From: Thermoactinomyces vulgaris
Lineage (GTDB): Bacteria > Bacillota > Bacilli > Thermoactinomycetales > Thermoactinomycetaceae
Direction: 5' to 3'
DNA: 64,000 nucleotides
Assembly: GCF_003688725.1 (NCBI RefSeq)
Contig: NZ_REFP01000008.1
Location: 496,001 to 560,000, forward strand
In this document: positions 44,525 through 46,887 of the stretch, in pieces
How positions within the stretch are numbered: position 1 is the stretch's first letter
Layout of the letters: each line of letters opens with the position of its first letter
Made by a program: the position numbers and the translations under genes
The notes under the pieces: model-generated
What the model was told of the DNA's origin: nothing
The model's database searches: none
The model's input: the letters and a program-made list of their open reading frames with translations, nothing else

Positions 44525-44687
44525 AAACTTCCTCCTTTGTTTCGCCTTGGATAAATGTTGATTTTTGGGGAATATCTATTAGTTTATAATAAATTAATTC
44601 AGAAATAAAATTTAGTTACGATCATTTAGCCAAGTCTTTTTTTTGTGGAAACGAAAAATATTGCATCAAAATCCACGCGTAAAAAAA

Positions 44688-44705
44688 AGAGGGCGGTTGC
44701 CCTCT
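44688..44705 (-). terminator. Terminator of the five-gene small-protein cluster
   Basis: AGAGGGC and GCCCTCT with a 4-base loop; on the minus strand T8 follows. It closes the cluster at 44.7-46.3 kb. Confidence 0.9.
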
Positions 44706-44734
44706 CGTGTCGGATGGAAGCGCAGTTGCGCTGG

Positions 44735-44950
44735 TTATAAGAGGTTGCTGGTGGAGTTGCCGCTTCCACCGCAGATGGTTTGTGCATCTCCCAAGTTAAT
44801 CGGGATTTGCAGGTTCAAGTTGATGAGACCGGCACTTTGAGCTCCGGTGGTGGCTCCGTTATTCACCCGGGCTTGGCATCCGCCGCGGCGGCGTCTGCGA
44901 CGGTGTGGCACAACCACTACAACTTTCTTTCTTCTCGTGCAGCAGGACAT
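44735..44950 (-). CDS. Arg-rich small protein with chaplin-like beta motif, paralog 1
   Basis: A 71-residue protein, family not recognised. The head is basic and Cys-containing (MSCCTRRKKVVVVVPHRRRR), with five valines in a row between two basic blocks. The tail is a hydrophobic/amide stretch: VNNGATTGAQSAGLINLNL, then QIPINLGDAQ, ending GNSTSNLL. The tail repeats almost exactly in paralog 2 and partly in paralog 3. No signal peptide. GGGGGTG precedes the ATG. The alternating hydrophobic QIPINLG motif resembles the beta segments of Streptomyces chaplins; this is a resemblance, not proven homology. Last gene of the cluster, before the terminator. Confidence 0.65.
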   Translation of the reverse strand: MSCCTRRKKVVVVVPHRRRRRRGGCQARVNNGATTGAQSAGLINLNLQIPINLGDAQTICGGSGNSTSNLL

Positions 44951-45026
44951 ACCGCGTCACCCCCTTTCACAAGGATTGCCGGACAAAGACGGGTCGGGAG
45001 AAGTGGATGTCAAATCAGGAAGGGAA

Positions 45027-45045
45027 GGGGGAGATGAACTCCCCC
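45027..45045 (-). other. GC hairpin between paralogs 2 and 1
   Basis: GGGGGAG and CTCCCCC with a 5-base loop, between two genes of one apparent operon and without a T run. It may protect or process the mRNA so that the upstream genes are expressed more strongly. Confidence 0.5.
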
Positions 45046-45056
45046 GGCATCATTCA

Positions 45057-45269
45057 TCAGAGGAGATTGCTGGTCGAGTTACCTCTGCCGCCGCTGAAGG
45101 CCTGAGCATCTCCTAAGTTAATGGGTACTTGCACGTTCAGGTTGAGCAAGCCGGCACTTTGTGCACCGGTCCGGGGAGCGTTGTTGACGGATGCGCGTGC
45201 GCTGAAGGACCGGCGGCGTCTGCGGCGGGCTACAACGACCACGACTTTCTTTCTTGCATGGCAATGCAT
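45057..45269 (-). CDS. Arg-rich small protein with chaplin-like beta motif, paralog 2
   Basis: A 70-residue paralog of the protein at 44735-44950. The head reads MHCHARKKVVVVVARRRRRR, again a valine run inside basic residues, followed by SVNNAPRTGAQSAGLLNLNV, QVPINLGDAQ and GNSTSNLL. Identity to paralog 1 is very high from the VNN motif to the end. GAAAGGAGGTG lies 9 bases before the ATG. The conservation of the tail against a variable head suggests the tail is the working part, possibly an assembling beta unit. Confidence 0.65.
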   Translation of the reverse strand: MHCHARKKVVVVVARRRRRRSFSARASVNNAPRTGAQSAGLLNLNVQVPINLGDAQAFSGGRGNSTSNLL

Positions 45270-45315
45270 AAGCCTTGCACCTCCTTTCAGGGAAAATGAT
45301 CACATTGGATTCGGA

Positions 45316-45747
45316 TTACTCTTTCTTTTCAGAATCCGCAGCGGATTGCTTGGAGGAGAATTGTTGTTTGATTTGCTGTTCAATTTGCTTTTTTTGTTCT
45401 TCCGTCACCGGAACTTTTTTCGCGATGACATTGACCAGATTGGGAGCCAGGGATTGCATCAGGGATGCGCCGGTTGTCGTTCCTCCGTTTCCGTTGCCGA
45501 TGAGGATCGACATCAACAGGTTGACGAGTGCCGTGATGAAATCAATGAGGATGCCTGTTGCATTCGCTACGGCTACTCTGGCAGATCCGGTGAGGGCTCC
45601 GGGCAAAGTCAGGATATAATTGAGAAAATCAATCGCGGTTTGTTGCGCTTCCACTTGTTGGGATTGCGGGACATTTTCCCGGATGGCTTCGTCCAAAATG
45701 GCGCGGATTTGTTCCAACTCTTCGGGGGTAAAGGAGTTTTTACTCAT
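45316..45747 (-). CDS. Hypothetical protein with hydrophobic core, companion of the cluster
   Basis: A 143-residue protein not recognised. An acidic helical N-terminus (FTPEELEQIRAILDEAIREN) is followed by a hydrophobic centre (AIDFLNYILTLPGALTG, ATGILIDFITALVNLLMSIL), a glycine/asparagine linker (GNGNGGTTTG) and a Gln/Lys-rich helical end (EEQKKQIEQQIKQQF). It has no signal peptide. GAAAGGAGGTGAAACAGG precedes the ATG, the same type of site as paralog 2. Its place between the paralogs suggests a shared function, for instance a partner in assembly or a membrane/spore-surface adaptor. Confidence 0.6.
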   Translation of the reverse strand: MSKNSFTPEELEQIRAILDEAIRENVPQSQQVEAQQTAIDFLNYILTLPGALTGSARVAVANATGILIDFITALVNLLMSILIGNGNGGTTTGASLMQSLAPNLVNVIAKKVPVTEEQKKQIEQQIKQQFSSKQSAADSEKKE

Positions 45748-45782
45748 CCTGTTTCACCTCCTTTCAATGGGGTTCACAGAAC

Positions 45783-46064
45783 TTACACGGCATTGGATAC
45801 CGAGTTTTGGTCACTTTCATTCAACGATGTGGAATCACCTACATTGACGGGGATTTGGACGATGATATTAATCAGACCGCTGATCGCGCCATCGATGGTC
45901 GCGGCGTTGTTGACGGAGCTGTCTGCGGAGGAAGGGCGTGTCGGACGTCTTCGTTTTTTGCGGGGGGAAACGTTTTTTAGCAGAAGCAGTCTGCGGCAGT
46001 GCCTGCACAAAGTCGGTTTTTTCTTCCTTTTCCGGAGTTTCTTTCGCCGTCTATAACAGGTCAT
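45783..46064 (-). CDS. Arg-rich small protein with chaplin-like beta motif, paralog 3
   Basis: A 93-residue divergent paralog. The head is longer and more basic (MTCYRRRKKLRKRKKKPTL, CRHCRRLLLLKN, SPRKKRRRPTRP) and includes a CxxC pair. The tail keeps the pattern: SVNNAATIDGAISGLINIIV, QIPVNVGDS, then NSVSNAV. ATG 46064 is chosen because GAGGAGGCG lies 6 bases upstream and its first residues then match the paralog heads; it overlaps the upstream gene by 14 bases, implying coupled translation. Confidence 0.65.
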   Translation of the reverse strand: MTCYRRRKKLRKRKKKPTLCRHCRRLLLLKNVSPRKKRRRPTRPSSADSSVNNAATIDGAISGLINIIVQIPVNVGDSTSLNESDQNSVSNAV

Positions 46065-46311
46065 TGTTTGCGCCTCCTCTCGTCCGGGAGGGCGCCGATT
46101 TGTTTCGGTGCAAGACATCTTGTTGGATGAGTTGCTTTATCTTGTTTTTGGTCCCTGGTTGGAACACTTCTGCCAAATTGATTAAATTCTGCAGTTTTGG
46201 GGGGAGTTTTTCATCATCCAGACTTTTGATCAATAAGTTGTATATTTTCATTCTCATGATTTGTTCCATTTGTCCCGAAAGTTGATCGAGGTGTTTCCGG
46301 TTGCCATTCAA
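46051..46311 (-). CDS. Hypothetical helical protein, first gene of the cluster
   Basis: An 86-residue, mostly helical, soluble protein of unknown family (HLDQLSGQMEQIMRMKIYNL; LPPKLQNLINLAEVFQPGTK). The TTG at 46311 is chosen because a perfect AAGGAGGTG lies 6-7 bases before it; an ATG ten codons earlier lacks a site. Its end overlaps paralog 3. A sequence upstream, AC followed 16 bases later by AATATACTA, resembles the sigma-K pattern (AC-N16-CATANNNTA), a weak hint of mother-cell expression. Confidence 0.6.
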   Translation of the reverse strand: MNGNRKHLDQLSGQMEQIMRMKIYNLLIKSLDDEKLPPKLQNLINLAEVFQPGTKNKIKQLIQQDVLHRNKSAPSRTRGGANNDLL

Positions 46312-46425
46312 TGACGACACCTCCTTGTTTTCAACTGGCATTCTTTGAAGTTACTATAGTATATTATTTGCTCGCAAAAAGGTGATTATATATTTTATAA
46401 ATAGTTTAGTATCTTGGTAGAAAAT

Positions 46426-46455
46426 AAAGCCGCCTTCCATTCGGAAAGCGGCTTT
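46426..46455 (-). terminator. Terminator after the 46.5 kb hypothetical gene
   Basis: AAAGCCGC and GCGGCTTT, with further pairing inside; on the minus strand ATTTTC follows. Confidence 0.8.
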
Positions 46456-46458
46456 TCA

Positions 46459-46887
46459 TCAGCCGGGGGTTTCCGTGAAATATTCCGGAAATTCCCGCAT
46501 AAATGTTTGTACGACTTCCGGATATTCGTTTTCGGCGATTTCGAAGATTTCCTCCCCTGAATATTCAAAAAAGAACAGGGATTTGTCGGGATGATCCGGG
46601 TCATAATACATGGCCATGGTTCGCTGTTGATGGGTGAAAGTGGCGCCCAAAACCGCCAGGAATGTCCTTCCTTCCACTTCCAGCCGTTGGAAGAAAAGCG
46701 GTTCCAACTCTTGCAGAATCAAATCGCTGTAGGTTTCCCCCGGATAACGCAAGACCATTTCGTCTTCTTTTTCTTCTTCAATAATATAGATTTCTCTTTT
46801 TCGTTCTTTTTTCCACAACAGCAGCAAATGCTTGATTTCTTGATGGATGAAAACATATTGATAAGGCGTTTGAAAGCGGATGTTCAA
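46459..46887 (-). CDS. Hypothetical acidic protein
   Basis: A 142-residue protein, not recognised with confidence. A basic first third (LLLLWKKERKREIYIIEEEK) is followed by LEVEGRTFLAVLGATF, MAMYYDPDHPDKSLFFFEYSG and an acidic end. The middle resembles the DUF1292-type pattern of a beta domain accepting or presenting acidic strands, but the match is weak. It starts at TTG 46887 with AGGGGAG 7 bases before. A promoter on the same strand is possible: TTGTTT (46953-46948), 18-base spacer, TAATAT (46929-46924). Confidence 0.6.
   Translation of the reverse strand: MNIRFQTPYQYVFIHQEIKHLLLLWKKERKREIYIIEEEKEDEMVLRYPGETYSDLILQELEPLFFQRLEVEGRTFLAVLGATFTHQQRTMAMYYDPDHPDKSLFFFEYSGEEIFEIAENEYPEVVQTFMREFPEYFTETPG

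Follow-up and report, generated by a model that had tools for sequence, protein, structure and literature searches.

Five small genes, ordered A-B1-C-B2-B3, lie on the minus strand between two intrinsic terminators in the window, that is, the whole 64,000-nucleotide stretch of DNA that was analysed. The window falls within a single contig of its host, a Thermoactinomyces species with a 2.56-Mb genome that shares its GTDB genus with T. mirandus; the preliminary description had rightly supposed a thermoactinomycete. It had also grouped two companions of 86 and 143 residues (A and C) with three paralogous genes, and all five are present on this strand. The features are as follows.

46426..46455, minus strand: upstream intrinsic terminator, a 13-pair stem with a T-rich tail, which ends the upstream gene (46887..46459) and sets it apart from the cluster
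46355..46384, minus strand: putative sigma-K-type promoter, CACC-N15-AATATACTA, with the alternative reading CACC-N17-TATACTATA; conserved 5' of gene A
46051..46311, minus strand: gene A, 86 aa, TTG start with a GGAGGTG ribosome site; first in every cluster, with orthologs in other loci
45783..46064, minus strand: gene B1, 93 aa, a long Arg/Lys/Cys head and the conserved tail (tail profile E 3.7e-22)
45316..45747, minus strand: gene C, 143 aa, hydrophobic, between B1 and B2, with orthologs in the loci of named genomes and of a metagenome-assembled genome (MAG)
45057..45269, minus strand: gene B2, 70 aa, an RKK-VVVVV-ARRRRRR head and the conserved tail (tail profile E 2.9e-24)
44735..44950, minus strand: gene B3, 71 aa, an RRKK-VVVVV-PHRRRRRR head and the conserved tail (tail profile E 1.9e-23)
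44687..44706, minus strand: downstream intrinsic terminator, a GC-rich 8-pair stem with a T run, which closes the cluster

The 111-aa open reading frame of B1 is over-extended; its true start is an internal ATG at 46064, which follows a strong GAGGAGG ribosome site and aligns with that of T. mirandus. In comparison with T. mirandus, the five minus-strand frames all have dN/dS values of about 0.11-0.23 (about 0.23 for gene A), with dS near saturation, and by this measure the cluster genes are under purifying selection. Because selection acts on the minus-strand frames, an open reading frame of 311 aa on the plus strand (45121-46056), antisense to the cluster, is most likely spurious. The neighbours of the cluster are NhaC and one protein without a name.

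Between B2 and B3, a GC-rich hairpin lies at 45023-45045, read by eye on the minus strand as GGGGGAG-TTCA-TCTCCCCC. No clear T run follows it, and it is therefore perhaps an RNA-stability or attenuation element.

The B proteins, their relatives and their distribution

B1, B2 and B3 are paralogs, each with a basic Arg/Cys head and a 43-residue tail of the common form AxVNNxARTGxxSGLINIxVQVPINLGDAxxxNxSxxNSVSNxL. A profile of the tail finds exactly three places in the whole host genome, namely B1, B2 and B3 (E 3e-24 to 4e-22). B2 and B3 are 71% identical over 68 residues, and B2 is 79% identical to its T. mirandus ortholog. The paralogy that had been proposed from tails aligned by eye is thus borne out, and the five valines noted inside two of the basic heads are those of B2 and B3.

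Conservation in the B family resides in the tail, and the head is the variable part. Counting K, R, D and E only, the heads of B1, B2 and B3 have net charges of about +21, +10 and +11, respectively. Across the family the heads vary yet are always strongly basic, with Arg runs, His/Asp/Arg repeats (T. daqus) or His runs (Hazenella). In the tail strand, hydrophobic and polar residues alternate at 170-180 degrees (p 0.002-0.006), which fits a surface beta strand; the tails as such are near neutral to moderately hydrophobic, and none of their columns in the alignment holds a conserved cysteine. As read from the sequence, the Arg-rich heads contain no hydrophobic run longer than about 5 residues and no obvious N-terminal secretion signal, in agreement with the preliminary description. 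A tree of the tails is weakly resolved and places 7 of the 8 B1 copies together. AlphaFold2 gave no confident structure or fold for a B2 monomer (mean pLDDT 53), a result that does not count in favour of amyloid, and an all-helical model at low confidence for C (mean pLDDT 60.7).

Copies of the tail occur in 14 of the 23 genomes from the same GTDB family, Thermoactinomycetaceae; the named ones are Laceyella, Seinonella, T. daqus, T. mirandus and Hazenella. Beyond this family, three others of the order Thermoactinomycetales contribute six clear cases, while samples of the class (n=400) and the phylum (n=399) gave no convincing match outside the order. Weak matches in G427, G500, G520, G530, G617 and G681, all outside the order, were set aside as chance, their E-values being marginal and most having internal stops or short frames. 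Judging from these searches, the cluster is specific to the order Thermoactinomycetales, whose described members, to our knowledge, form endospores.

The order A-B-C-B(-B) recurs in T. mirandus, Laceyella, Seinonella, T. daqus, Hazenella, a Thermoactinomycetaceae MAG and one further genome, with partly different flanking genes. Diverged clusters in the three additional GTDB families have an A-like gene adjacent to up to five B genes. This order-specific cluster is real and was previously without a name.

Several of these loci have features of their own. In T. daqus (L017:6956-8887) B genes alternate with two C genes, and HHHDR repeats make up the head of one B protein. Next to the cluster in L095, a gene at L095:6196-6768 (minus strand) encodes a 190-aa protein in which the tail motif (NxAxVxxIxGxGNIVIQxP) occurs four times, as a tandem version of the B tail. 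The 1355-aa repeat protein at L014:8281-12348, directly downstream of the Laceyella sacchari cluster, has a WIAG-tail domain at its end (NF012201, E 1.2e-12); it is possibly another surface protein.

Searches of A, B and C against Pfam, NCBIfam and the PDB gave no family match beyond chance, and the named spore coat and crust families of Pfam and NCBIfam gave no significant profile match to any of them. Matches at chance level were to a dynamin-like helical domain, DUF6987 and minor ampullate spidroin; one C member matched a collagen-like repeat preface domain at only E 0.056, which was also taken as chance.

The preliminary description had likened the tails to the chaplins of Streptomyces (ChpA-H, PF03777). 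Both groups comprise small proteins whose amphipathic strand is hydrophobic and contains Q-V-P-V and P-V-N motifs, and both have several paralogs per genome. As homology, however, the resemblance did not hold up. The PF03777 model matched none of 29 tails even at E 10, although a chaplin consensus used as a positive control scored 92.5 bits. The same model found nothing in the 23 Thermoactinomycetaceae genomes, with control genomes likewise giving no match, and a chaplin search of plasmid records gave no match. In hhalign, the tail aligned to the chaplin with a probability of 2.8% and to the reversed chaplin sequence with a higher one, 8.3%; the similarity seen by eye is therefore no more than composition would produce. 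Chaplins carry signal peptides and, with the exception of ChpE, conserved cysteines (PMC3079736). The B proteins, in contrast, lack a signal peptide, a conserved pair of tail cysteines and any Pfam match, and they differ further in their very basic head and endospore-type promoter. On these comparisons, the cluster proteins are not relatives of Streptomyces chaplins.

A putative sigma-K-type promoter and the timing of expression

In B. subtilis, sigma-K promoters consist of a 5-nt -35 element and a 10-nt -10 element separated by a gap of 14-16 nt; what tells them apart from sigma-E promoters is the C in the fourth position of the -35 element (PMC517825). Upstream of gene A, 9 of 13 loci carry CACC-N15-18-nATAnnnTA, where dinucleotide shuffles would give 0.03, and 9 of 13 carry the B. 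subtilis-type MACM-N15-17-nATAnnnTA, with the first -10 base left free, where 0.28 would be expected; the motif had been recognised in those same 13 loci, gerE and the order-level set being independent of them. At five of the six independent loci from other families, CACC or CACA-N18-TATAnnnTA (the looser MACM-N15-18 form) was found, in most cases at a comparable distance; the sixth, L093, departs by a single base. The -10 element begins with A or T, compared with C for B. subtilis sigma-K, and the strict CATANNNTA form of this element occurs at none of the 13 loci.

The gerE gene of B. subtilis is sigma-K-dependent. In the host, gerE, whose product matches PDB 1fse (E 5.5e-31), is preceded by CACC-N16-CATAATATA, with a canonical CATA -10, 60 nt upstream of the start. 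The sporulation protease gene yabG could not be used as a further sigma-K control, because YabG (PF05582) was not found in any of the 23 Thermoactinomycetaceae genomes (the B. subtilis control matched). Taken alone, CACC-N16-18-TATANNNTA is unspecific genome-wide, with 3 matches compared with 18 for the backward control, and neither of the two matches other than that of the cluster precedes a convincing spore gene. The minus strand of the cluster showed no sigma-70-like site, and no good match stood out to a sigma-G-type promoter, the type of forespore DNA-binding proteins.

Late mother-cell timing of cluster expression is fairly well supported. Deposition on the spore from the mother cell, as earlier suggested, gains independent support from this conserved sigma-K-type promoter, whose form is shared with host gerE. 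The link to aerial hyphae, on the other hand, is unsupported because the promoter points to the endospore programme instead.

Two further sites of this type may be mentioned. A sigma-K-like CACC-N16-CATACACTA in the host genome (L101; G000:C2:287606-287634, minus strand) lies 25 nt before what may be another late-sporulation gene, whose 130-aa Pro-rich product has no NCBIfam match. In a genome of family f6, a second sigma-K-like site, AACC-N18-TATAGTATA (L091:5630-5660), precedes B1, which suggests an internal promoter where the B genes were amplified (five copies).

Possible functions of the cluster

The cluster most likely encodes proteins of an outer spore layer. More specifically, we consider it probable that it is a sigma-K-expressed operon whose products are structural components of an outer endospore layer (outer coat, crust or spore sheath); the heads of the B proteins would serve as anchors and the tails would form beta layers. 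Under this scenario, the mother cell would transcribe A, B and C late in sporulation via a sigma-K-type RNA polymerase. As they have no export signal, the leaderless products would remain in the mother-cell cytoplasm, as coat proteins do, and from there would condense onto the forespore. Anionic coat or polysaccharide components would be bound by the basic Arg/Lys/Cys heads of the B proteins, whose cysteines may cross-link. The amphipathic tail strands (GLINIxVQVPINLGD) would pack side by side into beta layers, with A and C possibly acting as scaffold or partners. As no copy of the tail was detected in 9 of the 23 family genomes, the proposed layer would not be essential for sporulation. This patchy presence tells against the scenario, as do the A or T that opens the -10 element, the lack of a confident B2 model and the failure to match any known coat family.

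There are precedents among known spore proteins for parts of this scenario. Self-assembling coat proteins have been described (PMC4950064), and Arg/Ser/Lys-rich disordered regions occur in coats, as in CotB and CotG (PMC7821199). The B proteins would share with the Arg/Ser/Lys-rich outer coat proteins CotG and CotB of B. subtilis the proposed coat-type role and have, like them, a long basic low-complexity region. However, no sequence relation was detected, the cluster has no CotH-like kinase gene, and the B tail is not known in CotG or CotB. The small cluster proteins would resemble the crust proteins CotV, CotW, CotX, CotY and CotZ of B. subtilis in the proposed layer, in self-assembly and in late mother-cell expression, but no B or C has a Pfam match to these and the gene order is different. 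CotB1 of B. cereus, which functions in biosilicification, is also a spore coat protein with a cationic Arg-rich segment; this segment is C-terminal in CotB1 and N-terminal in the B proteins, and no homology was detected.

Other roles have to be weighed against an outer spore layer of this kind. A water-repellent amyloid coat on aerial hyphae and spores, arisen in convergence with that of the chaplins, could account for the alternating hydrophobic/polar strand with its Q-[VI]-P-[VI]-N, for the near neutral to moderately hydrophobic tails and for the four tail-motif copies of the 190-aa L095 protein, as would be expected of stackable repeats. We regard it as unlikely, though worth keeping in mind, given that no chaplin homology was detected, that the B proteins have no signal peptide, which chaplins do (PMC3079736), and that the promoter is of the late mother-cell type and not one of hyphal growth. 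The Arg9, His6 and Arg-rich CotB1p peptides bind silica (PMC11818168), and the heads in T. daqus and Hazenella are rich in His and Arg, so a mineral- or metal-binding spore layer, in which such heads nucleate silica or bind anions like the cationic C-terminus of CotB1, could also be envisaged. This too is doubtful, as conservation lies in the tail and the heads are variable.

The net positive charge of the heads (+10 to +21) would similarly suit proteins whose task is to package DNA or RNA, whether in the forespore or in the mother cell. The constraint on the tail instead of the head, the mother-cell type of the promoter without a good sigma-G-type match, and the lack of any match to a DNA-binding family make nucleic-acid binding very improbable. 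Least credible are secreted or antimicrobial peptides of a bacteriocin-like kind, with Cys/Arg heads and companion immunity or transport genes. Although the B proteins are small, basic and Cys-containing, and several paralogs are encoded in one operon, the unit has no recognisable gene for processing, transport or immunity, its gene make-up is conserved, and its neighbours are NhaC and the protein without a name.

Thermoactinomyces spores are very heat-resistant, airborne and linked to farmer's lung. Endospore surfaces are built from lineage-specific proteins. As no cluster protein matches a named family, the cluster is a candidate for a structural layer of these spores. Assembly of the tail into beta layers, if it occurs, would mean that these proteins and the chaplins had evolved convergently. 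In its boldest form, which we put forward as speculative and rather unlikely, the Thermoactinomycetales would have evolved their own beta-stacked, amyloid-like endospore surface from leaderless proteins, each combining a basic anchor with a short amphipathic strand, with chaplin-convergent chemistry delivered by the mother cell. The four-repeat relative at L095 would then be a pre-stacked form of the B tail.
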